A stretch of DNA of 29,781 bases from Clostridia bacterium (GTDB taxonomy: Bacteria > Bacillota > Clostridia > Lachnospirales > Lachnospiraceae). The stretch spans positions 1 through 29,781 of the forward strand of contig BNZI01000010.1 in the NCBI GenBank assembly GCA_026000945.1, in the 5' to 3' direction. Shown here piece by piece: positions 5,681 to 28,690 of the stretch (its first letter is position 1; each line of letters opens with the position of its first letter). A program made the translations under genes and the position numbers. The notes beneath the pieces are model-generated. The model searched no databases, was not told the DNA's origin, and was given only the letters and a program-made list of their open reading frames with translations.

Positions 5681-5846
5681 ATAGGTAGATCTATGATTAT
5701 TGCTCTATTTTAGACATTTAAGATTGTTCACTTGTTTCTAGTTTGAAACTGGAGAAAAGCAAGAATTTTAGAAACCCTGGAAATAGTATTTAGGATATGA
5801 TGTTAAATCATTAAAAAATATTAGAAATCAAAAGAGGAGAAGAAAA

Positions 5847-8800
5847 ATGGCACATAGCTATCTTGTAGCAGGAGCCCCACTAAAATGTGTAGCAGGAAGT
5901 TGTACAGGAAAATTGTCTTTACCAAAAAGTCACGGAATCTATGTAAAAGGGGATGCCCTTTGCAATGAGGATGATACGAAACCGATTCTCAATATTCCTT
6001 CTTTTGGCGTTTGTAGCATTACCGGAAAACCTTGTACGCCGATGCCCGTTCCAAAGTGGATGGCTGCCAAAAAGACGACGAAAATCGATGGAAAGTCAGC
6101 AATTACTACCGATTCTGGCTTGTTTTGTCTGTGTGGAGCATTAATCTTACCCGAAAGCTCTGGACAAAAGGAAGTGATGGCGCTGCTGGCGAGTTTGCCA
6201 GAAGAAGAAAGACGAAAGTTATTAAATGGGATTAAGACTTGTTCGCCTTATAGCAAAGATCCCGTCAATTTATGTACAGGAAATTTGACCATGACCAAGG
6301 AAGATCTGCGGATAGAAGGGCTTTATCCTTTGCCGTTTCATCGTACATACAATTCTTTGGAAACCAGAGTGGGGCAAATCGGAAAAGGTTGGATACATAA
6401 CTTTGAGGTAAGGTTAACAGAATACGATGACCGGATAGAAATTGTGCAGCCAGATAGCCGGATAGAAACCTACTGGAAAGCCGAAGAGGGAAGGCTAAAA
6501 GCTGCTACTGGTATACTGAGTCACTTAAGAAAAGAAGGAAAAGAGTATCTGTTAGAAACGCCAAAGTTTACGCAGTACCGTTTTAATGAAGCAGGACAGT
6601 GCCTATCTATTGTAGAGCTTTCGGGATATCGCGAAGAATTTTTTTATCAAGAGGGAAAGTTAGTCGAAGCAAAAAATCCTTGTGGAAGTATGCATTTTTT
6701 CTATCATGCTGATGGTTTTTTGCGGGAAATTTCAGATGGATTTGGAAAATTTGTTCGCTTTTTCTATAACAAAAACGGTCAACTTTCTTTTACGAAAAAT
6801 GCTTTAGGATATGGAGAAAGCTATACGTATAGCGAAGAGGGATGGTTAACAGAGATTTTTAATGCTTCGGGAGAAAGTACCTTAAACAATGAATATGATG
6901 TCTTGGGTCGTGTGGTGAAGCAAATCTTTCCTGATGGGGGAGTCATGACGTATGAATATACCGATCAATCGCAAAAAACGGTCATGGTTGAACAAAATGG
7001 AAATCGTACACGTTATTACCGAGATGAACGCTTTCGAAATATTCGGGTAGCGGATTCAGAAGGTTCAGAAATCAGAGAATATAATGAACAAGATCAAGTC
7101 ATTCTTTACCGGGATAAAAACAAACAAGAAACTCGCTTTACTTATGATGAGCAAGGAAACGCTGTGGAGTGTATCAATGCGTTAGGAGAAAAAGCCTACA
7201 AAGAATTTAATGCTTTGGGACAACTCACCAAAGAAACGTTTTTTGATGGTTCATCAGTAACCTTAACCTATAACCAAAAGGTTCAGCTGGAAACCAAAAC
7301 CGATGAAGTAGGCAATACCATACGCTATACCTATACCGGTAATGGTTTATTAGAACGTATTCGCTTTCCGGATGGCTCCTCACAACACTATCGCTATGAT
7401 GAGAAAAATCGCCTGGTTGCCCTAACAAATCCCAATGGAAGTATCCATCAATTTGAACATAATGAACAAAATCAAGTGATTGCCGTGATTGATGCTTTGG
7501 GTAACCGTTTGGCACTTGATTATGATGCCATGGGACAATGTCTATCGGTTTGTAATGCAGAGGGAAATACGAGAGAATTTACCTATAATCCACAAGGATT
7601 AGTCGAACAAGTCAAAGACTTTCATGGGGGAATCACCAAGCAAGAGTTTAACCCCTTAAACCGTGTAACCAGCTATCTCAATGCCTTGGAAGAAGAAACT
7701 AAGTTCATTTATGATCCCATGTGGAATGTCAAAGAGCAAATTGCGCCAAATGGGGCAGTAACCAAGTGGGACTATGACCGGAAAAATCGTTTAGTTAAAT
7801 CGACCAATGCTTTAGGGGCAAGTGTAGCGTATGAATACGATCCCAACGGAAATCTCGTCAAAGAAATTGGTCCAAATGGAGAAGAATATGTTATCGAATA
7901 TGATGCCCTGGACCGAAAAATCAAAGAAATCGATCCCGAAGGACGGGAAACCACATTTACTTATGATTCCAGAGATCGCTTAATTGAAGTGGTAGATGCG
8001 AGCGGAAACCGATGGAAGACAGAGTATTATCCCAATGGAAAAGTGAAATCCCAAACCAATCCCTTAGGAGAATGTACCCAGTTTGTTTATAATGCCTTAT
8101 CCCTACTGACGGAACAAATAGATCCCGATGGAGCAAAAACGACTTATGAATATTTTCCCGGAGGCTTACTCAAAAAAGTCCAGTTTTTTAATGGAAACTT
8201 TTTTCTCTATGAATATGATGAGAACAACAATATCCGCTGTAGAAAAGATCAAAGTGGCTATGAGGTCCTTTACCACTATGATGCGTTAAATCGGATCACT
8301 GAAATCAAAGATTCACTGGATGCGAAAAAAAGTTATACCTATACCCCACTGGGACAAGTGGCATCCGTTAGCGATAGTCTAGGCAATACCACGCACTATC
8401 GTTATTCTCTGACAGGAAAACTCTTACAAGTAGAAAATGCGCTCGGCGTAGTAGTTTCTTGTCACTACGACGAATCCGGGAGTTTACTTCAAGTAGAATA
8501 TCCTGCTGATCCGAAAAGCAACTTAGCGGATTTACCAAATGACCGGAGTAAAAACCCCTTTTTCAATGGAAATCCACTAAAGGAACAGCTAGAGGCAGAA
8601 ACTTTAAAACAAGATCCTGCACAACCTCTCTTTGTGGAGTATCAACGAAACCTCTTAGGGCAAGTCACGTCTGCCAAAGATGCCTTAGGGCAGGAAGAAA
8701 AATGGGTGTATGGGACAAATGGAAAACTCTTTCAACAAATCGATAAAGAAGGCTATCTCACCGAGTATTCCTATACCAAAAGCGGTGAATTGGAAGAAAT

Positions 8801-11009
8801 TCGTTATCCGAATCATACCTCTGTAAAAATGCAGTATAATCCCAACAAAGAATTGATTGGATTTTGTGATGCGTTAGGAGAACATCACATTGAGCGAGAC
8901 CCTTTAGGGAGAATTACCGCAGTGACCGATTACCAAGGGGAGAAAGTAGCCTATGAGTGGACCAGTGCAAATTTACTCAAAAGACTCATTTATCCAGATG
9001 AAACCACCGTGGAGTATTCCTATGATTCTGCTAGACGCTTAGTGAAGTGGAAAGAAGGAGAGCAAGTCACCCGCTATGCTTATGATCCGAATAACCGCAT
9101 TCAGGAAAAGCAACTCCCTAAAGGCATCAAAGCGCAGTATACCTATTTACCCAATGGGCAATTAAAAGCCCTAAGCTATTATCAATCCGAACAGATGCTA
9201 GAAAGCCTAAGCTATGGGTATGACCTCGAGCAAAACGTGATCCAAAAGACGCATCACCGGCACGGCTTAGAAGAGCAAAGTGGAACCTTTCACTACGCTT
9301 ATGATGCGTTACACCGTTTAACGGAAGTCAAAAAAAATGGGCAAGCGCTAAGAAAATATACCTATGATCTCCACAATAATCGGACAAGCTTATGGGAAAA
9401 CCACCGCTTGGGAGACTCACTGTTTACTTCTCAAGTAGCGAATGAACGTGATCACGGGGCAGAGGCTATCCAGTATTATGCGTATAACGAAGCCAATCAG
9501 CTGACCCATTCCACCGGCTTTCAAGGAGAGAACGTTTACCAATATGACAAAAGAGGAAACTTAATCAGAAAATGGAAAGATGAACAGTTGATCCTTGCGC
9601 ATGACTATGATCAAAGAAATCATTTGCTCTATGCTTGGAATAAAGCGATAAAGAGTTCAGTTTCTCCCGAGGAACAACTCACGCAGGATCAAGAAACAAA
9701 CGTGACTAGACAAGTACAAGCGAAAATGGCAAAATATACGTATAATGGTTTGGGTTATCTCACGGAAAAAGAAGTAGGCAGAGAAAACCCACATGAACTC
9801 ACTCGAGTCTATTATGATCCAGACGTAGAAAGCTATGTCGGGCGAATGGATCATGTGTTTCAACAAGATCCTCAGAAAAAAGTCCACTACCTTTGGGATA
9901 TGGGGAAAAAATGTAGAAACCTATTAGCCGTACAACAAGGAGAAAGCAAAAAGCGCTATATTTGGGATGAAGAAAGTACCGCAGTCCTTTGTAAAGAAGA
10001 TGCTTTTTCTTATCAGACTCTTTTACAAGATGAACTAGGCACAGTCATGAGAAGCGTGGGTAAACAAGAGACAAGCTATGCCTATGATGAATTCGGAAAC
10101 GATCTGTTTCCACATCAGAAAAAAGCACAAGACTTTGGCTTTACGGGATATTTATTCGATGAACAAAGCGTGTTAAACTTTGCCCAAGCCAGGTACTATG
10201 ATCCGGAAAGCGGAAGATTTGGCGGAGTAGATCCGCTAAAAGGTAGCTTAGCAGATATGCAGACACTTAACTACTACGGCTATTGTCAGGGGAATCCGCT
10301 GAAGTATGTGGATCCCACGGGAGAATTTACTTACTTAGAGGGAATAGAAGCCCATGGAATATTAGAAGCTGATACAAAAGTTAGATTAGGAAATCAAGTA
10401 GAAGTAGAAAAATTTATAAGTCCTTATTTAGGAAGTCCGTTTAAATGGGGTTTTGCAGATATAGTTTATTATGATAATGGAGGTGCAGCAAATGTTTATG
10501 AAATTAAGCCCATAACTCAACGTAAATCTCCTTCAAGAAATCATAATGGATTAACACCAACACAGCAAAGGGAATCCTATGAAAATGGATTAAGAGCAAT
10601 GAATCCTAACATTCAAATTAATCCAAGACCTGCACCTTTACCAGGCTTCATGTATAATCCAACAAACAATACTTGGCAGCGGGATTTATTTTGTCCTAGT
10701 AAAGCTCTAGAAGGAAAAAATTTGCGTTATTATGTTTATGAAGATCAGCCTGGGCTGATCTACTATGGATATGTAAATCAGCCTAAACCTGCCCCACAAC
10801 CGGTAGTTGTGGAAGCGAAGGAGAAAAAAACTGCTAGTGGGTGGCAGAAAGCTCAATATGTAGTGGGGGGGTGTGCATTAATATTAGCCGCAGGAGCGCT
10901 GTTTTTAGATGATGCAACTGGAATTGGTGTAGCAGATGATCCTGTTGCAGTTGGTTTTGTCGCAAAAGCAATACAGTTATTTTCTAGAGTTCTAAGTCCT
11001 GCTTATTAA
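5847..11009 (+). CDS. Rhs polymorphic toxin: PAAR-like DUF4280 cap, Rhs shell, nuclease tip
   Basis: A 1720-residue effector that should sit on a VgrG tip and be injected. The start has AGAGGAGA 7-8 bases upstream. Residues 1-115 form a Cys-rich PAAR-like DUF4280 cap (C11, C16, CSITGKPC, FCLCG). DUF6531 follows (DPVNLCTGNLTM... and FHRTYNSLE.. GWIHNFEVRL), then dozens of YD repeats (Tyr-x-Tyr-Asp/Asn-x-x-Gly) that build the Rhs cocoon. The core ends at the usual self-cleavage region, RYYDPESGRFGGVDP ... NPLKYVDPTGEF (D1489). The last 227 residues are the toxin: D1538 in GFADIVYY and E1552-I-K1554 in NVYEIKP give a D-x13-ExK spacing typical of PD-(D/E)xK nucleases. The tip ends with a hydrophobic Gly/Ala segment (about 1671-1685) and a short amphipathic tail, which is unusual for a soluble nuclease. 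The tip is visibly more AT-rich than the shell, a usual sign of tip exchange. There is no nearby chaperone gene of the DUF1795 type. Confidence 0.92.
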   Translation: MAHSYLVAGAPLKCVAGSCTGKLSLPKSHGIYVKGDALCNEDDTKPILNIPSFGVCSITGKPCTPMPVPKWMAAKKTTKIDGKSAITTDSGLFCLCGALILPESSGQKEVMALLASLPEEERRKLLNGIKTCSPYSKDPVNLCTGNLTMTKEDLRIEGLYPLPFHRTYNSLETRVGQIGKGWIHNFEVRLTEYDDRIEIVQPDSRIETYWKAEEGRLKAATGILSHLRKEGKEYLLETPKFTQYRFNEAGQCLSIVELSGYREEFFYQEGKLVEAKNPCGSMHFFYHADGFLREISDGFGKFVRFFYNKNGQLSFTKNALGYGESYTYSEEGWLTEIFNASGESTLNNEYDVLGRVVKQIFPDGGVMTYEYTDQSQKTVMVEQNGNRTRYYRDERFRNIRVADSEGSEIREYNEQDQVILYRDKNKQETRFTYDEQGNAVECINALGEKAYKEFNALGQLTKETFFDGSSVTLTYNQKVQLETKTDEVGNTIRYTYTGNGLLERIRFPDGSSQHYRYDEKNRLVALTNPNGSIHQFEHNEQNQVIAVIDALGNRLALDYDAMGQCLSVCNAEGNTREFTYNPQGLVEQVKDFHGGITKQEFNPLNRVTSYLNALEEETKFIYDPMWNVKEQIAPNGAVTKWDYDRKNRLVKSTNALGASVAYEYDPNGNLVKEIGPNGEEYVIEYDALDRKIKEIDPEGRETTFTYDSRDRLIEVVDASGNRWKTEYYPNGKVKSQTNPLGECTQFVYNALSLLTEQIDPDGAKTTYEYFPGGLLKKVQFFNGNFFLYEYDENNNIRCRKDQSGYEVLYHYDALNRITEIKDSLDAKKSYTYTPLGQVASVSDSLGNTTHYRYSLTGKLLQVENALGVVVSCHYDESGSLLQVEYPADPKSNLADLPNDRSKNPFFNGNPLKEQLEAETLKQDPAQPLFVEYQRNLLGQVTSAKDALGQEEKWVYGTNGKLFQQIDKEGYLTEYSYTKSGELEEIRYPNHTSVKMQYNPNKELIGFCDALGEHHIERDPLGRITAVTDYQGEKVAYEWTSANLLKRLIYPDETTVEYSYDSARRLVKWKEGEQVTRYAYDPNNRIQEKQLPKGIKAQYTYLPNGQLKALSYYQSEQMLESLSYGYDLEQNVIQKTHHRHGLEEQSGTFHYAYDALHRLTEVKKNGQALRKYTYDLHNNRTSLWENHRLGDSLFTSQVANERDHGAEAIQYYAYNEANQLTHSTGFQGENVYQYDKRGNLIRKWKDEQLILAHDYDQRNHLLYAWNKAIKSSVSPEEQLTQDQETNVTRQVQAKMAKYTYNGLGYLTEKEVGRENPHELTRVYYDPDVESYVGRMDHVFQQDPQKKVHYLWDMGKKCRNLLAVQQGESKKRYIWDEESTAVLCKEDAFSYQTLLQDELGTVMRSVGKQETSYAYDEFGNDLFPHQKKAQDFGFTGYLFDEQSVLNFAQARYYDPESGRFGGVDPLKGSLADMQTLNYYGYCQGNPLKYVDPTGEFTYLEGIEAHGILEADTKVRLGNQVEVEKFISPYLGSPFKWGFADIVYYDNGGAANVYEIKPITQRKSPSRNHNGLTPTQQRESYENGLRAMNPNIQINPRPAPLPGFMYNPTNNTWQRDLFCPSKALEGKNLRYYVYEDQPGLIYYGYVNQPKPAPQPVVVEAKEKKTASGWQKAQYVVGGCALILAAGALFLDDATGIGVADDPVAVGFVAKAIQLFSRVLSPAY

Positions 11010-14615: not shown

Positions 14616-16625
14616 ATGGCTCTAACCATACAAGAAGTAAAGCTTTTAGGAATACCAGTCCAAACAGAAATGAAAGAAGCAAAAGTACATATTGCCTATG
14701 GTGAACATGCGACGGCAAAAATTATCGTCGCTGTGCAAGAGGGATTTTCTTTTTCACAATGGGTAAGGGTTCAAGATGATGTACCGTTTTCTTTAGTGGA
14801 AGTAAAAGAAGGGAAAGAAATTCCTTGGTTTATCGGGATTTTGGATGAATATAGCTTATCTGAACAAACAGGAGAGTATATTCTAACGATTGAACTGATT
14901 TCCCTCAGTGTATTGTGGGATGATCAAGAAAATCATCGTTCTTTTCAAGATATTCAGATGACGTATCAAGACGTAGTGAATCGTATTGTGGCAGAACGCG
15001 GAGATTTTTCTGCTCGTTACTATGCAGGAGAAGAAAAAATTGGACAACCTATTTTTCAATCAAAAGAAACAGATTGGGAATTTTTGAACCGCCTATTTGC
15101 AAGATTATCACAGGGTGTTATCCCTGAAGTACGTTTTCCCAATAGGATAATCTCTTGTGGTATGGTTAAACAGACTAAATCAATAGAGATAGCGCCTGAA
15201 CAACTTCCACAAAGTAAATTTTGGAGCGGAGATTACTATAAAATGGGCGGAAGAGATACCAAGCAACAGCCTAATGATTTTTTTGTCTACATTTGGGAAA
15301 CAGATTTACATTATCAAATAGGAGATAGCCTAATTTTAGAGGGACAAAGCTACACCATTGCCAAAAAAGAAGCGATCTTTGAACGTGCTGCTTGGAAATT
15401 TCGCTATGAGTTACGTTCTAAAGTACTTAGACGACCGTATGCCAATCGCAAGTTGCAGGGGATAAAATATAGCGGAACTGTACTCAAACGAGAAAATGAG
15501 AGCGTTTATTTACATTTGCATATAGATCAAACACAAGACCTAGCGACAGCTTATCCTTTTCCGTATCGTCCAATCATGGGGAATATGGTCTACACTATGC
15601 CAGAAGTAGGCGAAACCGTATATCTAAGTATGGATTCAGAAAAAGATCATGATGCGAGAGTCATCCACTCTATACGTTGTAGGCGACCACTCGCTACACA
15701 AGTTCATAACCCCAATAATCGCTATTATCATACAAACCACATCAAACAAGTTCAACTTCGTCCGAAAGACCTCAACTTTTATGCTGCTTCCTACATGGAA
15801 AAACCAGAATCCATTCCCGAACCCCTAGCGGTGGAAATGTCCGATGAACGTGGGATTGCACTCCAAAGCCCCTATCTTATGGAGATGAAATCGGGGAAAG
15901 ATATCCTCATTGAAGGAGAACATATCTTAATCGAAGGAAAAAAACAAGTGACCTTGGCTAAAGCAGGAGTAATCCCTACGATGTTGAACTTGAGTGAAAA
16001 GTTTGATGCTGTAGGTGGGAAAGTAGTATTGCTTGGTGAAGAGAAAAAAGATTTTCTCCAAATGATAAAATCATCAACAAATAATCCAAATGGGGTTCCT
16101 AGTACAGGAAACGGGGGAAATGATTCTCCAGATGATAATGTACTAAGTAAAGAATTTGAACAACAGGAAGAAGAATTTAAGGATCAGTATTCTGAGGGTT
16201 CGGATAAAATAAATTCTAAATTAATAAGACAATACGTAAAAGAACTCAAAGAACACACAGGAATGAAGCTAACAAAATCACAAAAGAATAAATTAGCAGA
16301 GGCACTTAGAAATAACGAATATACTAAATTATCACCAGCTGAAGCTATTGAACATCGTACTGAGTTTAATAAAAGGAAAAATAATATTATTAAAGATTGG
16401 GAAATTAATACAGGAAAAAAGTGGCCGACCTATACGGAAGATGTTATTAACGAAAAAGGAAAGGTTACGCGAAAAGCAGGAGATCGATACGATGCTCACC
16501 ATATAATAGAAAATTCTTATGGTGGTGAACATGAATGGTGGAACATACATCCAGCAGAATTCCCGAAAAAACATCAAGGTGGAATTCATGGTTCAGGTTC
16601 TGCTGCAAATGAATTATTTAAATGA
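14616..16625 (+). CDS. Specialised VgrG with C-terminal HNH nuclease toxin
   Basis: 669 residues, with AAAGGAG about 9 bases before the ATG. The gene-free 260 bases upstream end in TTAAACGATAAAGGAGAAAA, which recurs at 17152. Residues 1-480 are a VgrG-like spike: SKETDWEFLNRLFARL is the VgrG signature, and GTVLKRENESVYLHLHID ... MPEVGETVYL forms the gp5 OB-like part, followed by short repeated strands (DILIEGEHILIEGKKQVTL). A Gly/Asn/Ser/Pro linker (about 489-510) leads to a toxin of about 160 residues. Its end has D626-A-H628-H629-I, then GGEHEWWNIHP (H645) and KKHQGGIHG (H653, H658). This is the core of HNH/ENDO VII-superfamily nuclease toxins (AHH/GHH-like) and would cut DNA or RNA in the target cell. 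The toxin half is more AT-rich than the spike half. The next gene is its antidote. Confidence 0.88.
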   Translation: MALTIQEVKLLGIPVQTEMKEAKVHIAYGEHATAKIIVAVQEGFSFSQWVRVQDDVPFSLVEVKEGKEIPWFIGILDEYSLSEQTGEYILTIELISLSVLWDDQENHRSFQDIQMTYQDVVNRIVAERGDFSARYYAGEEKIGQPIFQSKETDWEFLNRLFARLSQGVIPEVRFPNRIISCGMVKQTKSIEIAPEQLPQSKFWSGDYYKMGGRDTKQQPNDFFVYIWETDLHYQIGDSLILEGQSYTIAKKEAIFERAAWKFRYELRSKVLRRPYANRKLQGIKYSGTVLKRENESVYLHLHIDQTQDLATAYPFPYRPIMGNMVYTMPEVGETVYLSMDSEKDHDARVIHSIRCRRPLATQVHNPNNRYYHTNHIKQVQLRPKDLNFYAASYMEKPESIPEPLAVEMSDERGIALQSPYLMEMKSGKDILIEGEHILIEGKKQVTLAKAGVIPTMLNLSEKFDAVGGKVVLLGEEKKDFLQMIKSSTNNPNGVPSTGNGGNDSPDDNVLSKEFEQQEEEFKDQYSEGSDKINSKLIRQYVKELKEHTGMKLTKSQKNKLAEALRNNEYTKLSPAEAIEHRTEFNKRKNNIIKDWEINTGKKWPTYTEDVINEKGKVTRKAGDRYDAHHIIENSYGGEHEWWNIHPAEFPKKHQGGIHGSGSAANELFK

Positions 16626-16639
16626 TTGGAGAAATATAG

Positions 16640-17071
16640 ATGAGTTATAAATTTTTAACGAAGAAAAATAATACTTTTTACCCTGTTAGTAGTACAGAAA
16701 TAATTGAAGTTGAGAATTCTCTTGATCTTGTATTACCAAACAGTTTAAAGGATTTATACAATGAAATAGGATATGGATTTATTAAAGGATCAGAAAACAA
16801 TGTTAATCGTATTTTAGATCCATATTCGATAAGAGATTTTAGAATGAGAGAAAATGATTTTGAATTTTATCCTGATATAGAAATATATACTGAATTTGAA
16901 ATAGATAAAGTTATTTTTTTTGAGGGTAATGAATCTGTTCTCATTTCAATAGGTTTTACCGAAAACAATAAAAATGCAATTTTTTATTACAATACACAAA
17001 TAGCAGCTTCTCTAATGGAGTTTTTACAGAAATTACAGGATAATGATATGTATTATATGGATTTAATATAA
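16640..17071 (+). CDS. SMI1/KNR4 (SUKH) family immunity protein
   Basis: 143 residues, 14 bases after the VgrG-HNH stop, with TTGGAGA about 8-10 bases upstream of the ATG. The SUKH pattern is clear: IIEVENSLDLVLPNSLKDLYNEIGYGFIKG (acidic helix, LP, then the aromatic/Gly motif), a central strand FEIDKVIFFEGNESVLISIGF, and the C-terminal helix ASLMEFLQKLQDN. SUKH proteins bind and block many nuclease toxins in the cytoplasm, so this is the expected antidote for the HNH tip. The matching AT-rich composition and tight spacing support travel as a pair. Pairing is inferred from context and has not been tested. Confidence 0.87.
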   Translation: MSYKFLTKKNNTFYPVSSTEIIEVENSLDLVLPNSLKDLYNEIGYGFIKGSENNVNRILDPYSIRDFRMRENDFEFYPDIEIYTEFEIDKVIFFEGNESVLISIGFTENNKNAIFYYNTQIAASLMEFLQKLQDNDMYYMDLI

Positions 17072-20401: not shown

Positions 20402-21577
20402 TTATTTGCTCAATAATTTTTTATAGCTCATATCCACAGCAATTGCTCCCAGTGGAGCAGTAATTAAAATCGCAAGTACGGCGACTGCCAAAATGATATT
20501 ACCCGCCGCAACGCCAGTAGCTAAAGGAATCCCTCCGATCGCTGCTTGAACGGTAGCTTTTGGTATATAGGCAACAGCACAAAAGAGACGTTCTTTTTGA
20601 TTCAAACTTGTTTTCATGAGGGATACGCAGACACCGCATATTCGCATGAGTAGTACAAAAAGGATAAAAGCAATAGCGAACACTCCTGCTTTAGTCACAT
20701 AGTTTATATCGACTGTCGCACCAACCAGTACAAATAGCAGTAATTCAGCCGCTACCCAAATTTTTGAAAACTTTCCCGAAAGACGTTTTGCCAGAACATG
20801 ATAGCGCTTTAATATCGTGCTACCCAAAGCCATAACAGCCAATAAACCGGAGACGGGAACATAGAGGGGAAGAGCCGTCTCCAAGGTTACAAGCAGGAAA
20901 GACGTACTTAGGATAATCAAAATCTTTATGGTATCTCGCATATGGATTTTTTTGAATAACGCCACCAAAAGAAGTCCTGGTAGTATTCCGGTAAGTAGAC
21001 CGAGTAAAATACCTATTGGTATTTTCACTAGACTTTGTGCGGCGAAGCTGCCGTCACTATACATTCCCAAAAATGATGTAAATAGAACGATTACATATAC
21101 ATCGTCAACAGAAGCTCCTGCCATAATGAGTTGCGGAATACTCTTTGTTTTTCCATAGCCGCTTTCGATCAGCTTGATCATTTTCGGAACAATCACCGCT
21201 GGAGAAACGGCGCTGAGAACTGTTCCCATTATTGCCGCTTCTAAAGGTGAAATCGAAAAAAATATAGGTGCAATTATAGTTACGGAGACTATCTCAAACG
21301 TTGCAGGGACAAAGCACATCAGGATAGCTGGTCTGCCGACCTTTTTCAATTCCTCAATATCCAAGGCGAGACCAGCCCTTGTCAGGATAACAATCAGCGC
21401 AAGTTTCCTTAAATCAGCGGATATGCCTAGTATTTCAGGAGCAATTAGGTCAAGAGCATATGGACCGAGAATAATACCTGTCAGAAGCATACCGAAAAGA
21501 CCGGGCAATCTAAGCTTTTGCATAACTCCGCTTAAAACGAGAGCGCAAAGGAGTATAACAGCAAGGCTAAACAACAT
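20402..21577 (-). CDS. CPA-type cation:proton antiporter under a fluoride riboswitch
   Basis: 391-392 residues, typical of short antiporters without a regulatory tail. Two ATGs are in line (21580 and 21577); GGAGG (21585-21589) sits 4 bases from the first and 7 from the second, so I prefer 21577. About 11-12 hydrophobic segments are visible, from FSLAVILLCALVLSGVM to AVAVLAILITAPLGAIAV. Marks of the Na+/H+ antiporter fold are GMLLTGIILGPYAL near the start, LILTRAGLALD-type LALIVILTRAGLALDI, VLSAVSPAVIVPKMI (family core helix 4), and MAGASVDDVYVIVLF with paired acidic residues D154/D155 as the likely ion site. The gene stands alone and runs opposite to its neighbours. The leader (21605-21746) shows how it is controlled. 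It may help the cell withstand fluoride by moving protons or cations, or carry fluoride itself; the sequence cannot tell which. Confidence 0.88.
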   Translation of the reverse strand: MLFSLAVILLCALVLSGVMQKLRLPGLFGMLLTGIILGPYALDLIAPEILGISADLRKLALIVILTRAGLALDIEELKKVGRPAILMCFVPATFEIVSVTIIAPIFFSISPLEAAIMGTVLSAVSPAVIVPKMIKLIESGYGKTKSIPQLIMAGASVDDVYVIVLFTSFLGMYSDGSFAAQSLVKIPIGILLGLLTGILPGLLLVALFKKIHMRDTIKILIILSTSFLLVTLETALPLYVPVSGLLAVMALGSTILKRYHVLAKRLSGKFSKIWVAAELLLFVLVGATVDINYVTKAGVFAIAFILFVLLMRICGVCVSLMKTSLNQKERLFCAVAYIPKATVQAAIGGIPLATGVAAGNIILAVAVLAILITAPLGAIAVDMSYKKLLSK

Positions 21578-21604
21578 CATGGAACCTCCATATACAAAAA
21601 ATGT

Positions 21605-21707
21605 AAAAAAGCTAATGATTTCCGCAACTTAATCGTGCAGAAGTCATTAGCTTTTTTCAATAAGCGTTTCGGTCGGCTTGCCGACACGGGGAGAACTTCA
21701 TTCCCAA
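21605..21707 (-). promoter_or_regulatory. Fluoride (crcB-type) riboswitch with intrinsic terminator
   Basis: Read on the minus strand, GGGAATGAAGTTCTCCC (from 21705) matches the fluoride aptamer start GGxGATGxxGxTCxCC. After a small hairpin (GTCGGC-AA-GCCGAC) come AACGCTT...AAGCTAATGACTTCTGC, ending at 21637. GAAGT in the first loop can pair with ACTTC in the last part, giving the family's pseudoknot. The bases AAGCTAATGA and CTTCTGC can instead pair with GCGGAAATCATTAGCTT, followed by T6 (21610-21605), forming a terminator that excludes the pseudoknot. Ligand binding should therefore allow read-through. The antiporter start codon is 25-28 bases downstream. Confidence 0.88.
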
Positions 21708-21717
21708 TATTTCTTGA

Positions 21718-21746
21718 ATAGTAGCATGATCAAGAGGATATGTCAA
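21718..21746 (-). promoter_or_regulatory. Promoter of the riboswitch-antiporter transcript
   Basis: On the minus strand a perfect -35 TTGACA (21746-21741), 17 bases of spacing and a -10 TACTAT (21723-21718) are present. Transcription would start about 7 bases later, only a few bases before the riboswitch. Between this promoter and the MarR promoter (21747-21930) I see no gene. Confidence 0.8.
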
Positions 21747-22024: not shown

Positions 22025-22510
22025 ATGAACGCTAAGAAGGAAAAGCTGATTGCGCAATTTGCACGCTTACAAGCTCTGGCCAATCGCCATCAAAAACAGC
22101 ATTTTGCAAGTGTCGGTCTAAGTGCTAGCCCATACAGTGGACAGGGGCGTGTGCTATTACTGCTAAAAGAAAAATTAGAAATTAGTCAAAAGGAATTGAC
22201 TTCTATTCTAGATATGACAAAACAGGCAACGGCGCAGTTGCTTGACAAATTGGAAAAAAATCATTATATCACAAGAAATACATCAAAAGAGGACCGTCGT
22301 GTTTTGATCATCAAGCTTACCGAGTCAGGAATGAAGTTGGCTACTGAAATGGAAATTGTGCCGCATGAAAGAGGTACTGAGTTTGATTGTTTGCAAGAGG
22401 ATGAATTGGATATTTTAAGTGGATATATGGAACGCCTCATTAAGCGCTTTGAAGAACTCAATGTAAATACCGATAACAATGACAAGAATAATAAAGGAGT
22501 GAAGAAATGA
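22025..22510 (+). CDS. MarR-family transcriptional repressor
   Basis: 161 residues, with GAGGAGAG about 8 bases before the ATG. The winged helix-turn-helix is clear: EISQKELTSILDMTKQATAQLLDKLEKNHYITR (about 57-89) as helix and recognition helix, then the wing SKEDRRVLIIKLTESGMKLA, the classic MarR D-R-R...L-T..G pattern. N- and C-terminal helices give the dimer interface. Its own promoter carries two operator-like boxes, so it probably represses the operon it heads. It shares a 4-base ATGA overlap with the flavin-reductase-like gene, the expected regulated target. The inducing ligand is unknown. The extension at the end (NNDKNNKGVKK) is low complexity. Confidence 0.92.
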   Translation: MNAKKEKLIAQFARLQALANRHQKQHFASVGLSASPYSGQGRVLLLLKEKLEISQKELTSILDMTKQATAQLLDKLEKNHYITRNTSKEDRRVLIIKLTESGMKLATEMEIVPHERGTEFDCLQEDELDILSGYMERLIKRFEELNVNTDNNDKNNKGVKK

Positions 22511-23073
22511 ATTTCAATAATCTATTTAAGCAAATTTCACCGGAAGAGGTCTGTGATCAATACAATGTATGTACATTGTTTGGAAAGGATTGTTATGCAG
22601 TGACTGCCGGCAGGGAAGATCAATACAATTCTATGGTGGGCAGCGGAGGTGGTTTGGTGATACAGTTTAAAAAACCGGCAACGTGGTGTATCTTTCAATC
22701 AGACCGCTACACGCTCGAACTCATTCGGAAAGAGCAGAGTTATACCTTGTCTTTCTTTCCAGACAAATATAAGGAACAATTGATGTTTTTGGGGAGTAAA
22801 TCAGGACGAGATAGCAATAAAATGCAAGAAACAGCATTGACTGGCATTCAAACTCCATCTGGTAACATGGCTTTTTCTGAAGCTAAACTGATTATTGAAT
22901 GTAAGTTGACGCAGAGTACTCTTGCTAAACCAGAAGATTTTTATTCACCACAAGCGATAGCTTATCTAAAAGAGGCTTATCAGGAAGTAAACGATTATCG
23001 ACAATATGTATTTGGGGAAATTATACATGTATGGGTTAACAATATCAAAGTGAGTCTTTTGGTGAATGGGTAA
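22507..23073 (+). CDS. Flavin reductase-like FMN-binding split-barrel protein
   Basis: 188 residues, translationally coupled to marR by an ATGA overlap, with AAAGGAG about 9 bases upstream. The flavin-reductase-like barrel pattern is visible: CTLFGKDCYAVTAGREDQYNSMVGSGGGL (residues 22-50), a strand with ATWCIFQSDRYTLELIRKE, YTLSFF at about 78-83, and GSKSGRDSNKMQETAL, the loop used for the phosphate and ribityl of FMN. It probably reduces or binds flavin and could act on electrophilic compounds sensed by the MarR partner. A redox-stress role is inference. The stretch 23074-23392 after it holds no gene that I can support. Confidence 0.8.
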   Translation: MNFNNLFKQISPEEVCDQYNVCTLFGKDCYAVTAGREDQYNSMVGSGGGLVIQFKKPATWCIFQSDRYTLELIRKEQSYTLSFFPDKYKEQLMFLGSKSGRDSNKMQETALTGIQTPSGNMAFSEAKLIIECKLTQSTLAKPEDFYSPQAIAYLKEAYQEVNDYRQYVFGEIIHVWVNNIKVSLLVNG

Positions 23074-23392
23074 CTAAATCGTTACAAAAAATCTAAACAA
23101 GACTATACAAAGATGTACAGCAAGTATAGAGTTAGATAATCTAAAACTCTTTCAGGGCGGGTAAGCGGAATAAATGAGTCTGCATGGGGAGTAATTTCTA
23201 TATAGAACACTGCTAAGTTAATTTTTGTGGATTCAAAAATAGGGTTTAGCTATGCATGCGCATGATAGAGTGATTTTTAAGCTGTTGGCTGTAGAATAGC
23301 TTATATTGAAATTGGAGACAAGGTTCTGATTAATGGGAGAGCGACATTGTATCGATTACTATACTAAATTCATTTGGAATGGGGGTGCAAGT

Positions 23393-24070
23393 TTGAATAA
23401 AATACTTGTCGTTGACGATGATGTGAATATTCGCAAGCTTATCTGCCGAATATTGACTGATGCAGGCTTTGCAGTTTGTGAAGCTAGCGATGGAAATGAC
23501 GCTTTGGAAAAATTTTATATAAACGATATTAGTGTATGTGTCGTAGATATCATGATGCCGAATATGGATGGTTTCGAGTTTTGCCGCAATATTCGTAGTG
23601 AAAACCAGGATATTCCTTTGCTTATGCTTACGGCTAAAACGGGAATCAGTCAAAAGAAAGAGGGATTTGGTGCCGGCGCAGATGATTATTTGACGAAACC
23701 CTTTGACGCTGAGGAATTGATTCTGCGCATTAGGGCATTGCTTAAACGTTATCAAATTATTTCGGCGCAAACGCTGACAGTAGGTGAACTTACGATTGAT
23801 CGTGAGAGTCATACAGTAACAGCGGACGGTGTTCGCTCGGATATTCCGATGAAGGAATTTGAAGTGCTTTTCAAGTTGGCGAACACACCTGGTAAAACGT
23901 TCTCACGCAATCAGTTAATAGAGGACATATGTGGTTACGATTTTGAGGGTAACGAGCGCACGGTTGATGTACATATTAATCGCTTGCGTGAGAGATTTCC
24001 GTCAGAGAAATACGGTTTTCGGATTAAGGCTATCCGTAGTTTGGGGTATCGCTTGGAGGTGCTGTCTTGA
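23393..24070 (+). CDS. OmpR/VanR-family response regulator
   Basis: I choose TTG 23393 (225 residues) because GGGGGTG lies 6-7 bases upstream and the receiver domain begins here with KILVVDDD; the in-frame ATG 23333 would add 20 residues unlike the family and has no good site. The receiver contains the acidic pocket D8-D9-D10, the phospho-acceptor D52 in VVDIMMPNMDG, T in LMLTAKT and the conserved Lys in YLTKPF. The C-terminal half is a winged helix (LTVGELTIDRESHTV ... FEVLFKLANTPGKTFSRNQLIEDICG ... TVDVHINRLRERF). It overlaps the kinase gene by four bases (TTGA). Paired 11-bp repeats in two downstream promoters (25107 and 26824) are its probable targets. Confidence 0.92.
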   Translation: MNKILVVDDDVNIRKLICRILTDAGFAVCEASDGNDALEKFYINDISVCVVDIMMPNMDGFEFCRNIRSENQDIPLLMLTAKTGISQKKEGFGAGADDYLTKPFDAEELILRIRALLKRYQIISAQTLTVGELTIDRESHTVTADGVRSDIPMKEFEVLFKLANTPGKTFSRNQLIEDICGYDFEGNERTVDVHINRLRERFPSEKYGFRIKAIRSLGYRLEVLS

Positions 24071-25086
24071 AAAAGAATAAGCTGCGTAATTTGTTTCGAG
24101 GAGTGTTTATGTTTTTTGTAGTCGGTATTGCTTGCGTCGTAAGCCGTGTTCTTGCCGTATTCATTTTCAAGGGAATGGGGACATCAAATGATTTGATTCA
24201 ATATTTGGTGTCAGTCTCCATTTTCTTTTTTTTTCTTTGGTTGCTGTTTCAACTAAAACCTGAAGATAACGAAGATTATGTCACTAGCATTTTTGATACA
24301 TTGAGGAATGTTTCACAGGGCAACTTCAATGTTTTGATTGAGCAGAACAAGGGTAGCCGCTTTGATGAATTGGCTGTTAGAATTAACGAGATGGCGAAAG
24401 AACTCGGCTCAATGGAACGTTTACGGCAGGATTTCATCTCCAATATATCCCATGAATTTCAATCGCCATTAACGTCCATAATCGGATATGCCACACTTTT
24501 GCGTAAAAACGGAGCGACGTCACAGCAGATAGAATATGCCACCATTATTGAGGAAGAAAGCAAGAGATTGTCTAAGCTGGCGGATAATCTCTTGTTACTT
24601 TCTGCACTCGAAACAGATGCAGCTCCAATGGAAAAGACCGTTTATCGACTAGATAGGCAGCTTGAAAATGTGATACTTCTACTTGAACCCCAATGGTCAG
24701 CAAAAAACATTGAACCAGAAACTGACTTGCACAAGATAGAAGTTCTTGGTAACGAGGACTTGCTGAAGCAGGTGTGGATTAACCTATTGGTTAACGCAAT
24801 CAAATTCACGCCTGAAAGCGGTGAAATTCAGGTATCAGTGAAATCGGGTGAAGGCAGTATTGAGTGCCACATTGCCGACAGTGGTATCGGTATAGCTCCC
24901 ACCGACCAGATGCGAATCTTTGAGAGATTTTATAAAGTAGACAAAGCACGTGACCGCTCAATTGGCGGAAATGGCTTGGGATTATCGCTTGTAAAAAAAA
25001 TTGTGGAGCTGCACGGTGGAAATATAACGGTTGAAAGTGTACTCGGCCGGAGAACGATATTTATCGTTACATTGCCTTCAAAATGA
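24067..25086 (+). CDS. VanS-like sensor histidine kinase
   Basis: 339 residues from TTG 24067, overlapping the regulator stop. Two hydrophobic segments at the start (about 11-37 and 45-65) are separated by only a few residues, so there is almost no outside sensor domain: it probably senses the membrane or an interacting protein. A HAMP-like linker follows, then the H-box FISNISHEFQSPLTSI with phospho-acceptor H129, the N-box NLLVNAIKFTPESG, G1 DSGIGIAP, the F-box FERFYKVDKAR and G2 GGNGLGLSLVKKIVELHGG. All kinase motifs are intact. It phosphorylates the regulator encoded just upstream. The neighbouring amidohydrolase and ABC exporter suggest a drug or peptide-antibiotic response, by inference. 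Confidence 0.92.
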   Translation: MKKNKLRNLFRGVFMFFVVGIACVVSRVLAVFIFKGMGTSNDLIQYLVSVSIFFFFLWLLFQLKPEDNEDYVTSIFDTLRNVSQGNFNVLIEQNKGSRFDELAVRINEMAKELGSMERLRQDFISNISHEFQSPLTSIIGYATLLRKNGATSQQIEYATIIEEESKRLSKLADNLLLLSALETDAAPMEKTVYRLDRQLENVILLLEPQWSAKNIEPETDLHKIEVLGNEDLLKQVWINLLVNAIKFTPESGEIQVSVKSGEGSIECHIADSGIGIAPTDQMRIFERFYKVDKARDRSIGGNGLGLSLVKKIVELHGGNITVESVLGRRTIFIVTLPSK

Positions 25087-25106
25087 TTTTTTCGGTTTAC
25101 CTTACA

Positions 25107-25149
25107 TTTATCCACAATTTATCGTCAGTTTATAAATCCCTCCTATAAT
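25107..25149 (+). promoter_or_regulatory. Response-regulator-type promoter of the amidohydrolase unit
   Basis: Three TTTATC/TTTATC/TTTATA boxes start at 25107, 25118 and 25129, exactly 11 bases apart, and the -10 TATAAT is at 25144-25149. The last box starts 15 bases before the -10 and replaces a -35, the usual layout for activation by an OmpR-type regulator. The same layout occurs at 26824-26855. Confidence 0.75.
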
Positions 25150-25176
25150 GTGGTGATTACATTATAGGAGGGATTT
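25134..25176 (+). terminator. Perfect 18-bp stem-loop after the kinase gene
   Basis: AAATCCCTCCTATAATGT (25134-25151) and its exact inverse (25159-25176) form a hairpin with a 7-base loop and a short T-run, so it can end the regulator-kinase transcript. It also contains the -10 of the promoter at 25107-25149, so one element may do both jobs. Confidence 0.6.
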
Positions 25177-25186
25177 TCTTTGGAGT

Positions 25187-25294
25187 ATGGTCGGTTTTCA
25201 TTCCAATAAAAAATATGGAGAAATTGTTTGCAGTATAGCAATTTTAGCAAAGTATGTTGTTAATGTAGGGCGTATACCGTTGAAAGTTATTTAG
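25187..25294 (+). pseudogene. Short coding-like remnant in the amidohydrolase leader
   Basis: A 35-codon frame from ATG 25187 reads MVGFHSNKKYGEIVCSIAIL, continues KYVVNVGRIPLKV and stops at 25292-25294. After that the reading continues in another frame (GILVATIFNIGNHV). AGGAGGG lies 14 bases upstream. It resembles the decayed start of a small membrane protein. The rest of the gap to 25463 contains a repeat (25382-25401) and the ribosome binding site of the next gene. Confidence 0.25.
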
Positions 25295-25381
25295 GAATTT
25301 TGGTAGCTACTATTTTCAATATAGGCAACCACGTTCATTGCTGATGGATTGTTAATTGCGTACACAATAAGGAACAATAGA

Positions 25382-25401
25382 CATAATATGCTACCGTAAG
25401 T
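25382..25401. repeat. Second copy of the 20301-20320 repeat
   Basis: CATAATATGCTACCGTAAGT matches the sequence at 20301-20320 at 18 of 20 positions. It is in a gene-free leader, probably part of a decayed gene or element. Confidence 0.4.
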
Positions 25402-25463
25402 GAGAGATTAAACCATTTTGAGAAGCAAGGTATAAAACAAATCAAAATCATAAAGGAGAGAAT

Positions 25464-26795
25464 ATGATGAACCGCAAAACAGGAATGTCAAAAAGGTTGA
25501 TGAAAGTGTTATCGCTCTTGGTTTCAGGAATGTTGATAATCGGAATGATGGGTGGTTGCTCGAACAAGACAGCTAATACTGACCAAGACTTTGTTGCTAT
25601 AATCAACGCAAAAGTTTTTGACGGTGAAAGCGTAATTGATACAACAACCGTGGTAATCAAAGACGGAATAATCCACTCAGTGGGTGGAGAAATTCCCGAA
25701 GGTGCAGCCATTGTAGATGCCGCGGGTAAAACGCTTATGCCGGGATTGATTGATTCCCACACGCATACTGATATGAATGGTCTTAAAGATGCGCTAAAAT
25801 TTGGAGTGACTACAGAGCTTGAGATGAACGGTACATGGTCCGCCAATGAGCGCAAAAAAATTACAAACAGCAACAATATGGCAGATTTACGTTCCCCTGG
25901 TATGGGCATTACATCCAAAGGCGGTCATCCAAGCGAATATCAGAGTTCTAGCAACAATTTGTTGATACGCTATTTTTTTAAATTTCCCTCAGCTTCTACT
26001 CCAAAAGAGGCAATGAAACTTGTTGATCAGCGTATTAAGGAAGGCGCAGATTACATAAAAATTCTTGTTGAAAATGGCGATAATATCGGCTTTCCGGGGC
26101 TTCCTGTGTTGGACGATGCAACGCTTCAAGCCGCTATTGACGAAGCGCACCGCTTTGATAAACTGACGATTGCTCATGTAACTACTGCCGCCGAGACAGA
26201 GCGTGTCGTCGCAGCGGGGATAGACGGATTGGGACATTTGTTCTTTGACGATCAACCTTCTGATGGACTTGTTAGCGATATTGTATCTTCGGATGTTTTT
26301 GTTATACCAACTCTTGTAACACTTTCCACTGCTTTTGGCACTGACGCAGCTTGGCTTGCAAAAGATGAACGGGTAAGCTCAAAGCTCAGTAAAGAGTGGC
26401 TTGATTCATTATCTACCAGTGCGAATGTTTATCCCGAAGGTAATCTTGAGGAGGCTTATACTACTGTTATGACACTACATAATGCGGGTGTGGATATTTT
26501 GGCAGGCAGTGATGTGTCGGAACCTGTTCCCGGTCTTGGTGGACTTGCACACGGTGCCAGCCTGCATCATGAATTGCAACTATTGGTAGAGGCAGGATTT
26601 ACACCTACTGAGGCATTACGTGCAGCAACCTCTGTTCCAGCGCATCGTTTCAGCTTGGATGATCGTGGTCAGATTATTCCTGGTGCGCGTGCTGATCTTC
26701 TATTGATCGATGGTGACCCACTGATTGACATTTCTCATACACTAAACATTGATACGATATGGCGTGGAGGAATTAAACTTGAAGATATGCAATAG
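25464..26795 (+). CDS. Lipoprotein amidohydrolase (imidazolonepropionase-like)
   Basis: 443 residues, with AAAGGAG 5-8 bases before two ATGs (25464 and 25467). The start is a lipoprotein signal: basic residues, a hydrophobic core (VLSLLVSGMLIIGMM) and the lipobox MGGC with C32, so it is anchored to the outside of the membrane. The metal-dependent amidohydrolase barrel follows: an N-terminal beta-sandwich with VDAAGKTLMPGLIDSHTHTD (metal HxH), then DYIKILVENGD (Lys), LTIAHVTT (His), GIDGLGHLFFDD (His) and the final metal Asp in ILAGSDVSEPVPG. The C-terminal end, GQIIPGARADLLLIDGDPLIDI, is standard for the COG1228-type prolidase/imidazolonepropionase-like group. An extracellular amidase beside a drug-type exporter and two-component pair could inactivate a peptide or lactam compound; that is inference. 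Confidence 0.88.
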   Translation: MMNRKTGMSKRLMKVLSLLVSGMLIIGMMGGCSNKTANTDQDFVAIINAKVFDGESVIDTTTVVIKDGIIHSVGGEIPEGAAIVDAAGKTLMPGLIDSHTHTDMNGLKDALKFGVTTELEMNGTWSANERKKITNSNNMADLRSPGMGITSKGGHPSEYQSSSNNLLIRYFFKFPSASTPKEAMKLVDQRIKEGADYIKILVENGDNIGFPGLPVLDDATLQAAIDEAHRFDKLTIAHVTTAAETERVVAAGIDGLGHLFFDDQPSDGLVSDIVSSDVFVIPTLVTLSTAFGTDAAWLAKDERVSSKLSKEWLDSLSTSANVYPEGNLEEAYTTVMTLHNAGVDILAGSDVSEPVPGLGGLAHGASLHHELQLLVEAGFTPTEALRAATSVPAHRFSLDDRGQIIPGARADLLLIDGDPLIDISHTLNIDTIWRGGIKLEDMQ

Positions 26796-26823
26796 TTTAG
26801 TTTTTTGAAAATGATTTTGCCAG

Positions 26824-26855
26824 TTTATCGTTTATTTATAAAACCTATCTATAAT
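26824..26855 (+). promoter_or_regulatory. Response-regulator-type promoter of the ABC exporter
   Basis: TTTATC (26824) and TTTATA (26835) are 11 bases apart, and the -10 TATAAT is at 26850-26855. The distance from the last box to the -10 is 15 bases, the same as in the promoter at 25107-25149. Flanking bases are also alike (ATGATTTT before, TATAAA after), so the two promoters are copies of each other. Confidence 0.75.
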
Positions 26856-26884
26856 GCGAGTATAACAGTTGAGGAGGAATGATG

Positions 26885-27823
26885 ATGAAGAATATGGCTA
26901 TCGAAGCTCAAGGCTTAATCAAAGTATTTGGAAATAATCGTGCTGTTGACGGGGTAAATCTTAATATCCCAACAGGAAGCATATGTGGTGTACTCGGACC
27001 GAACGGGGCCGGGAAAACGACAACAATCAATATACTTGCTACATTGTCAAAGCCGGATGCGGGTAGCGCAAGAATTTTTGGTTATGATGTGTTAAAAGAA
27101 ACCCAGAAAGTGCGCCAGTTAATAGGATTAACAGGGCAATATGCAACGATTGACGAGAGTTTGACCGCTATGGAAAATCTCACAATTTTTGGTCGTCTGC
27201 ACGGATATTCGAGAAAAGATTCAAAGCGAAAGTCAATTGAGCTGCTTGAAGAATTCGATCTGATGGAAGCGGCGAACAAAGCTCTTTCGCAATTTTCGGG
27301 AGGAATGCGTCGGCGCCTTGATCTTGCGGCAAGTCTGTTGTCAAGTCCGCCACTTATTTTCCTTGACGAACCGACGACAGGGCTTGATCCAAGAACACGG
27401 ACTCAGATGTGGATGACAATCCGCAGTCTTGTAAAAAACGGTTCAACGGTATTGCTTACAACGCAATATCTTGACGAAGCTGACCAACTCGCCGACAATA
27501 TTGTAGTTATTGACCGAGGAAAAGTAGTTGCTAACGACACCCCAAGTGGATTGAAAAAATCGATCGGAGCTTCATCTCTACAAGTTACGGTGAAAAATCC
27601 AGATGATGTTTTGGAAGCTACGCAGATAATCGAAAATATTCTTGGTGAACATGTATTAATCACAGAAGTAGCAGATTTAACGGTGCCAATGAAAAGCACG
27701 GATAAACTAATTGATATATTGACGGCAGCGAAAAACGCCGGAATTATCTTGACAGAAATCAATGTTCGTCAGCCCTCACTTGACGAAGTGTTTTTCGCCT
27801 TGACGGGTAACGTGGATAATTAA
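26885..27823 (+). CDS. DrrA-like ABC exporter ATP-binding protein
   Basis: 312-314 residues. Three ATGs are in a row (26879, 26882, 26885); AGGAGG at 26872-26877 is best spaced for the third, so I take 26885. The ATPase motifs are complete: Walker A GPNGAGKTT, Q-loop GLTGQYATID, signature FSGGMRRRLDLA, Walker B PPLIFLDEPTTGLDP, and the switch His replaced by Gln (LLTTQYLDEADQLA). That Gln is usual for the daunorubicin DrrA group. The last 90 residues form the DrrA-type C-terminal domain (LQVTVKNPDDVLEATQ ... PSLDEVFFALTG). It powers the membrane protein encoded 15 bases downstream and is probably controlled by the two-component pair. Confidence 0.92.
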   Translation: MKNMAIEAQGLIKVFGNNRAVDGVNLNIPTGSICGVLGPNGAGKTTTINILATLSKPDAGSARIFGYDVLKETQKVRQLIGLTGQYATIDESLTAMENLTIFGRLHGYSRKDSKRKSIELLEEFDLMEAANKALSQFSGGMRRRLDLAASLLSSPPLIFLDEPTTGLDPRTRTQMWMTIRSLVKNGSTVLLTTQYLDEADQLADNIVVIDRGKVVANDTPSGLKKSIGASSLQVTVKNPDDVLEATQIIENILGEHVLITEVADLTVPMKSTDKLIDILTAAKNAGIILTEINVRQPSLDEVFFALTGNVDN

Positions 27824-27838
27824 GAAAGGAGATTCAAA

Positions 27839-28690
27839 ATGGCTAGTACATCAACAACGAACAGAGCAATGTCAGCAAATACAGCTATTGTTCCTGCAAT
27901 GGAGCGAAAGCTCAAAAATAGTGTAAGTTTTTGGACTGCGCTTCAAAACATCTTTACGTTTGCTTATCGTACCTTAATTAAGACAATACGCAATCCCGAA
28001 ACGCTAATGGATGTAACCATTATGCCCATTATGTTCACCCTGGTATTTACTTTCCTTTTTGGAAGTTCTGTTTCAGGCAGTGTTTCGGAGTATTTGCCGA
28101 TTATTATTCCGGGTATTTTAATTCAGACGTTTTTAACAAGTTGCTCAGCAGTTGGAGTTCAAATGCGGGAGGATATGGAAAAGAGCATTACAAACCGTTT
28201 TAAATCAATGCCAATTGCTCGGATTGCTCCTCTTGCCGGAGCGTTGGTAGCAGATATCTTAAGATTTACAATTGCTGGAATAGTAATCTTCACTATGGGA
28301 GAAATCCTCGGTTATAGGCCTGAAGCTGGAATATTAGCAGTAGCAGCGAGCATACTTTTTATGACTCTAATCGCCTGGTGTTTAAGTTGGTTGTTCTCAT
28401 TTGTAGCGCTCTCAGTACGGTCAGTAACTGCCGCTTCTACTACTGGAATGCTGATTATGTTCCCACTCTGCTTTCTGTCAAACGCGTTTGTTCCGGTGGA
28501 AGCATTGCCAGGCGCACTCAAATTTTTTGCTGAGCACATTAATCCAGTGTCAAAAGCCGTTTCAGCGGTTCGGCAGATCTTGAGTAGCGGTACAGTCGGT
28601 ATAGACTTCTGGATGGCATTAGCGAGCATATTCGTTGTACTTGTGATCTTTGTACCGCTGACGTTGAAGGTTTATATGCGCAAGGAGTAG
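27839..28690 (+). CDS. DrrB-like ABC-2 exporter permease
   Basis: 283 residues, with AAAGGAG 7-8 bases before the ATG and 15 bases after the ATPase gene. After a polar N-terminal tail of about 45 residues it has about six hydrophobic segments: MDVTIMPIMFTLVFTFLFG, YLPIIIPGILIQTFLTSCSA, the APLAGALVADILRFTIAGIVI region, ILAVAASILFMTLIAWCLSW, TTGMLIMFPLCFLSNAFVP and a final FVVLVIFVPLTLKVYM. The MREDMEKSITNRFKSMPIAR loop and the FVPVEALPGALKFFAEHINPVS segment are typical of ABC-2 type exporters for drugs or lipids. It would form the membrane channel with the DrrA-like subunit. The exported compound is unknown. Confidence 0.9.
   Translation: MASTSTTNRAMSANTAIVPAMERKLKNSVSFWTALQNIFTFAYRTLIKTIRNPETLMDVTIMPIMFTLVFTFLFGSSVSGSVSEYLPIIIPGILIQTFLTSCSAVGVQMREDMEKSITNRFKSMPIARIAPLAGALVADILRFTIAGIVIFTMGEILGYRPEAGILAVAASILFMTLIAWCLSWLFSFVALSVRSVTAASTTGMLIMFPLCFLSNAFVPVEALPGALKFFAEHINPVSKAVSAVRQILSSGTVGIDFWMALASIFVVLVIFVPLTLKVYMRKE

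Follow-up and report, generated by a model that had tools for sequence, protein, structure and literature searches.

What does a cation:proton antiporter do for a cell when its gene is placed under the control of a fluoride riboswitch? This question is raised by a gene in the window analyzed here, a stretch of 29,781 nucleotides from a genome of the class Clostridia. A fluoride riboswitch in front of a Na+/H+ antiporter gene is a known arrangement, and the window gene is one more member of this group; it is the pattern across the clade to which the gene belongs that is of interest. In the passages that bear on this subject, a review counts two bacterial fluoride exporters, treats the antiporters as pH helpers and puts Na+/H+ antiporters second only to the exporters among the genes that fluoride riboswitches most often precede (PMC11139923). 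The initial annotation of the locus left two roles open for the antiporter, namely the cell's own answer to fluoride or a partner in pH recovery.

A fluoride riboswitch with an overlapping terminator

The initial annotation proposed a fluoride riboswitch upstream of the antiporter gene and an Rfam search as the means to verify it. At gathering thresholds, a cmscan search of the whole window yielded a sole match, a full-length hit (model positions 1-64) to the fluoride riboswitch family RF01734, also known as the crcB motif, at 21714-21631 of the minus strand, with a score of 43.1 bits against the curated gathering cut-off of 34 (E 5.8e-9), which confirms the proposal. The window switch shares with RF01734 the pseudoknot, the P3 helix and the overlapping terminator, and differs from it in two respects, the GAAGU:ACUUC sequence of the pseudoknot and an additional hairpin located between P1 and P3 (Table 1). 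This longer form is present in 37 of 54 antiporter leaders, as counted from the alignment rows. A riboswitch form exclusive to antiporters was considered and rejected, given that matches of similar length precede crcB too (e.g., in genomes G003 and G364).

In the alignment of these 54 leaders (53 relatives and the window), 92.0% of the cells pair, compared with 38-60% in slid versions of the alignment. Double-sided changes, which fall in the pseudoknot, P3 and P1, occur in 9 of the 13 pairs (shuffled mean 4.2, with 0 of 500 shuffles as high), with the qualification that these shuffles ignore relatedness and that 11 of the 500 equalled the observed number of pair types. This covariation supports the pseudoknot and P3 and, together with the conserved linkage to the antiporter described below, rules out a chance match.

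None of 200 shuffled sequences folds as well as the hairpin at 21657-21605, which has a U-rich tract on its 3' side; the terminator rule of the window scan allows loops of at most 8 nucleotides, so that the scan did not list this hairpin. Because the hairpin takes in the 3' pseudoknot strand, the aptamer and the terminator are predicted to be mutually exclusive, and competition between aptamer folding and the overlapping terminator appears well supported. The layout of the leader is that of a predicted fluoride-ON transcription switch. The promoter-like sequence by itself carries little weight because the same scan detected 8 such sites in comparison with 4.7 in shuffles. The first ATG of the antiporter gene, at 21580, lies 24 nucleotides past the terminator hairpin, and the true start may be the second ATG, at 21577, because the aligned homologues mostly begin there (MLF...). 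Back-to-back divergent pairs of fluoride riboswitches, approximately 115-142 nucleotides apart, were also observed in other genomes (G359:C72:4585-4855, G255:C57:47563-47834 and G385:C1:1229942-1230196).

Table 1. Predicted features of the antiporter locus, in the order of transcription
Feature	Coordinates	Strand	Evidence
Sigma-70-type promoter, TTGACA-17-TACTAT, TG before the second hexamer	21718..21746	-	10 of 12 matches; consensus match only
Fluoride riboswitch aptamer (RF01734)	21631..21714	-	43.1 bits, E 5.8e-9; covariation in 54 leaders
5' pseudoknot strand GAAGU	21695..21699	-	pairs with 21640-21644; 97.0% of cells paired in the 54-leader alignment
Extra hairpin between aptamer P1 and P3	21670..21688	-	fold and leader alignment
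3' pseudoknot strand ACUUC, common to the aptamer and the terminator 5' arm	21640..21644	-	hairpin fold and leader covariation
Intrinsic terminator hairpin (expression platform), overlaps the aptamer	21605..21657	-	-25.8 kcal/mol, z -8.6
Ribosome-binding site GGAGG	21585..21589	-	read in the sequence
NHA2-like cation/proton antiporter, 392 aa	20402..21580	-	PF00999, NHA2 profile match, structure model
Inverted repeat AAACACCACA...TGTGGTGTTTT with T tract, directly past the stop codon	20365..20397	-	read in the sequence; absent from the scan list

The antiporter is related to NHA2

The only Pfam family matched by the antiporter is PF00999 (E 1.5e-38, 133 bits against a cut-off of 26.2), which places it in the CPA superfamily. 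The protein is unrelated to both known exporters and matches neither PF02537, the family of Fluc, nor PF00654, the family that includes CLC-F. The closest solved relative by sequence is NHA2 (E 4.8e-51 with a profile). A structure model built from 120 relatives reached a pLDDT of 88 and had NHA2 (7b4l) as the top Foldseek match, with a TM score of 0.83 and 29% identity, which indicates a fold of the NHA2/NhaP type; this model supersedes an earlier one from 35 close relatives (pLDDT 51), for which the fold search was weak and served as a hint only.

The ion-site residues named for NHA2 in the relevant part of a published study are E214, D277, D278, R431, K459 and T461 (PMC8850199). Their counterparts in the window antiporter are E96, D159, D160, R313, K341 and T343, and these residues are matched in 119-120 of the 120 aligned relatives (119 of the 145 locus proteins and the window). 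The antiporter thereby retains the DD pair, the Glu-Arg pair and the ion-site Lys and Thr of NHA2/SLC9B2 (7b4l, 7p1i), in agreement with membership in the NHA2-like part of CPA2; it differs from NHA2, apart from the low overall identity, in the Tyr that replaces W456 in 119 of the 120 relatives and in the predicted control by a fluoride riboswitch. The scores against the NCBIfam equivalogs for the CPA2 subfamily 2a37 and for potassium-proton antiporters fall short of the cut-offs (40.1 against 238.3, 50.6 against 355 and 35.8 against 309). One switch-linked antiporter (L097, from genome G059) lacks three ion-site residues in the alignment, the two aspartates and the lysine; a misalignment, a frameshift or genuine variation could account for this.

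The window antiporter has perhaps been acquired horizontally. The GC content of the gene is 42.2%, compared with 36.1% for the window, although the stretch 22025-28690 reaches 40.8%. Within the class set, its closest relative (78%) belongs to another family, and among the 20 genomes listed of its own family, the antiporter is found only in the window's own genome and one other. In a collection of plasmids, 342 records match the antiporter (174 from Escherichia and 130 from Klebsiella), 5 of which cover 80% of it; the ten partial matches listed span residues 207-392 at 60% identity (e.g., locus L232, 5022-5570), and in the one plasmid record inspected, rmtB adjoins the antiporter piece. This plasmid-borne piece may hint at what sort of donor that segment came from. 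Elsewhere in the window, positions 1926-11009 and 14616-17071 encode phage-baseplate-hub (GPD) proteins, the second of these below the family cut-off, along with a 1720-aa protein with DUF4280 and RHS repeats and a SUKH-1 protein; the composition of this stretch resembles that of a polymorphic effector and immunity cluster of the contractile-injection type.

Linkage of the riboswitch to the antiporter across genomes

The class set consisted of 393 genomes (drawn at a completeness of at least 90%, with the window's own added). Fluoride riboswitches were found in 97 of the 393 genomes, with 120 matches in total, 11 of these below the family cut-off, in a search the filters of which were stricter and lost weak matches. 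The antiporter profile yielded 70 matches in 66 genomes at E 1e-50 or better, and 54 of these genes are preceded by a fluoride riboswitch on the same strand, at a distance of 34-341 nucleotides for 53 of them and of 2.4 kb for one; among the 16 genes without a riboswitch call, one later gained a weak call (E 0.0043). The 120 riboswitches precede the antiporter in 53 cases, crcB in 22 and CLC genes in at least 9, with another gene or nothing seen in the remaining 36. The antiporter is therefore the commonest target of the fluoride switch found in this class, so that the initial expectation that transporters other than Fluc and CLC-F are less common targets does not hold here.

The linkage extends to a second collection, in which a riboswitch lies within 400 nucleotides of 62 of the 80 antiporter loci, with records that include Parabacteroides, Bacteroidales, Rikenellaceae, Brachyspira, Acholeplasmataceae and Megasphaera. 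In a tree of the antiporter proteins (one protein shorter than 300 aa left out and 3 identical ones merged), the switch is present at 113 of the 142 tips, and the label is not clustered, with 27 changes against 26.9 for shuffled labels, in a count where loss and a missed call look alike.

As the initial annotation stated, no fluoride channel adjoins the antiporter. The inverted repeat at 20397-20365 is a probable terminator of a one-gene transcript. No same-strand ORF of at least 70 aa is present within 120 nucleotides at 97 of the 137 antiporter loci that have downstream sequence, at least three of which were counted twice owing to the overlap between the class set and the second collection; at the remaining 40 loci, the ORFs that follow belong to no common family, and no shared operon partner was found. 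Among the 52 genomes with a switch-antiporter pair (53 paired genes; hereafter pair genomes), exactly one fluoride riboswitch was found in 49, so that the antiporter appears usually to be the sole gene seen under the fluoride switch in a genome. The window's own genome has one fluoride riboswitch and no match to PF02537 or PF00654, with an assembly that is 67.6% complete, so that the absence of a channel there carries little weight.

The antiporter alternates with Fluc

The gene crcB (PF02537), which encodes Fluc, is present in 85 of the 393 class genomes, namely in 2 of the 52 pair genomes (G321 and G376) compared with 83 of the 341 others (p 2.5e-4), or in 2 of the 66 antiporter genomes compared with 83 of the 327 others (p 1.1e-5). 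Both exceptions fall in a divergent antiporter clade of four genomes (G230, G259, G321 and G376); with this clade excluded, none of the 62 antiporter genomes has crcB, compared with 85 of the 331 others (p 1e-7), a comparison in which the clade was set apart only after both exceptions had been seen in it. In the second collection, where crcB and CLC-F were searched in 50 of the 80 genomes (at least 3 of the 50 also belong to the class set), a single genome has crcB (L027, Parabacteroides).

A further comparison covered one densely sampled family, picked since it was rich in both genes in the class sample and showed them there without overlap, and searched for antiporter, crcB and CLC-F-like genes. 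Of its 109 genomes, the antiporter is present in 60 and crcB in 24; 25 have neither gene and none has both, against 13.2 expected to have both (p 7.7e-11). These 109 include the 12 genomes through which the family had already contributed one or the other gene to the class sample. Genomes of the same genus share ancestry, which makes all these p-values too small. The within-genus pattern resists this objection best: nine genera hold both genes somewhere, only 2 genomes carry both together, and in one genus of the dense family (g84), each of the 8 genomes listed has exactly one of the two genes (3 with the antiporter and 5 with crcB). At the level of genera, the two genes overlap in 9 compared with approximately 13 expected, and both genes are clustered by genus (e.g., 11 crcB genomes belong to the genus g129).

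Other gene pairs behave differently. In the controls, crcB is positively associated with any CLC (65 of the 183 genomes with a CLC against 20 of the 210 others) and is commoner in riboswitch genomes that lack the antiporter than in all other genomes (25 of 44 against 60 of 349), and the association of the antiporter with any CLC is mildly positive (38 of the 62 antiporter genomes compared with 145 of the 331 others, p 0.013). No in-place swap of crcB for the antiporter was detected: among 16 loci of three genera, antiporter loci and crcB loci of one genus were not seen to share flanks. Taken as a whole, the comparison of gene contents supports the view that the antiporter alternates with crcB across genomes.

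CLC proteins in the antiporter genomes

In the part that deals with CLC-F, the review gives three signatures (GNNLI/GMGLI, GREGT/V and GEVTP) and a frequency of about 3% for strains that have both Fluc and CLC-F (PMC11139923). The CLC genes adjoining riboswitches that we fetched (L146-L155) bear the CLC-F signatures. Neither crcB nor any CLC is present in 18 of the 52 pair genomes. The other 34 with a CLC include two, G259 and G299, in which the CLC-F signatures are present or nearly so (GMALL, GREGV and GEVVP in G299), and 12 with a GREGA-type CLC; the remaining CLCs are of the chloride type (GREGP) or have other motifs. The typing covered these CLCs except that of G320 (no match to the CLC-F profile) and the second one of G276, and in the second collection all but the second CLC of G439. 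The GREGA proteins (e.g., L160, L161 and L177) have GEIVP or GEVIP motifs and are 33-47% identical to the CLC-F L150. Fewer genomes would rely on the antiporter if these CLCs export fluoride. Overall, neither Fluc nor a canonical CLC-F was seen in 48 of the 52 pair genomes. Beyond these, GREGV-type CLCs occur in three of the 50 second-collection genomes (G394, G433 and G426), and in the dense family a high-scoring CLC-F-like gene, identified by score, is present in 1 of the 102 genomes scanned (G493).

Possible functions of the antiporter in fluoride resistance

From the riboswitch, the protein family, the linkage of the two and the avoidance of Fluc, all of which are read from sequences, we infer that the antiporter alone would supply the fluoride defence. 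Our leading, if tentative, proposal is that the switch-controlled, single-gene NHA2-like antiporter is a stand-alone defence that replaces Fluc and acts through cation/H+ exchange. Fluoride would enter the cell as HF and dissociate inside, and it would turn on the transcript of the antiporter gene through the riboswitch; the induced antiporter would then let H+ in from outside in exchange for Na+ or K+ from the cell interior. A weak acid of this kind is concentrated inside the cell by the pH gradient. The influx of H+ would lower the gradient that traps fluoride, which could leave again as HF. The predicted direction, H+ in and cation out, follows from the consideration that, in a cell with no fluoride exporter, expulsion of H+ would cause further HF to enter, and cation/proton exchange is favored because the NHA2 ion-site residues are nearly invariant among the relatives. 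A stand-alone role is suggested because a helper limited to pH should have an exporter at its side, yet the antiporter is mostly found without one. The 25 of 109 dense-family genomes with neither gene count against this proposal, as do the antiporter genes without a riboswitch call, the unclustered switch label on the tree, the mild positive association with any CLC and the separate loci of crcB and the antiporter.

The avoidance of crcB is what redundancy would lead one to expect, and it fits equally well with direct export of fluoride by the antiporter clade itself, for example by F-/H+ exchange, which would add a third exporter family to Fluc and CLC-F. Lowering of the pH gradient explains the avoidance less sharply because its effect would add to that of Fluc. 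We consider direct export possible, and less likely than cation/H+ exchange. It offers the simpler account of the crcB avoidance, which resembles the rarity of genomes with both Fluc and CLC-F in the cited part of the review (PMC11139923), and in nearly all pair genomes no gene but the antiporter was seen under the switch, with no canonical exporter seen in most of them. CLC-F, a chloride family turned to fluoride, provides a precedent. The intact cation site must be reconciled with such an activity, no clade-specific change resembling an anion site was found, and fluoride transport by the CPA family was not found in open PubMed Central papers; anion carriers of related fold (PIN, bile acid) were matched insignificantly (E >0.4) by the earlier, poor model. 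The more specific claim that the switch-bound NHA2-like clade, in Clostridia and in the Bacteroidales and Brachyspira records, constitutes a third class of fluoride exporters that replaces Fluc genome by genome is doubtful.

We regard it as rather improbable that the role of the antiporter is confined to relief of the acid load from HF entry, with another protein exporting fluoride. The part of the review that considers such antiporters holds that they aid pH homeostasis (PMC11139923), and the relevant section of a study of C. difficile describes a fluoride-switched two-gene operon, CD0656-7, that encodes a CLC and an NhaP-type antiporter (PMC11477304). The window antiporter resembles these proteins in being under a fluoride riboswitch; unlike the antiporter of the apparent C. 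difficile operon, it lies alone, directly behind the switch, in a set of genomes most of which have no Fluc or canonical CLC-F that we could find. A pH-recovery role is compatible with the divergent clade, where Fluc or CLC-F co-occurs in 3 of the 4 genomes. In the pair genomes at large, crcB is avoided rather than accompanied, a canonical exporter is mostly unseen and a conserved operon partner is absent. Between the two roles named in the initial annotation, the comparison accordingly fits an answer to fluoride of the cell's own and agrees poorly with a partner in pH recovery.

That the avoidance of crcB is an effect of lineage or habitat rather than function is the least plausible explanation: the clustering by genus and the shortfall of shared genera agree with it, and the near absence of genomes with both genes in the nine shared genera, the complete separation in g84 and the positive association of the other gene pairs argue against it.

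Implications

Like crcB and the gene for CLC-F, the NHA2-like antiporter is an alternate fluoride-switched gene. The avoidance of crcB, the one-gene regulon and the kinship with NHA2 were not found in the literature, as far as it is covered by open PubMed Central papers. A clade that avoids Fluc even within genera and is usually the sole switched gene seen points to many species in which the antiporter may be sufficient by itself. Two possibilities follow, a third exporter or a defence that works through adjustment of the pH gradient and needs no dedicated exporter, and either outcome would alter the annotation of fluoride tolerance in bacterial genomes.
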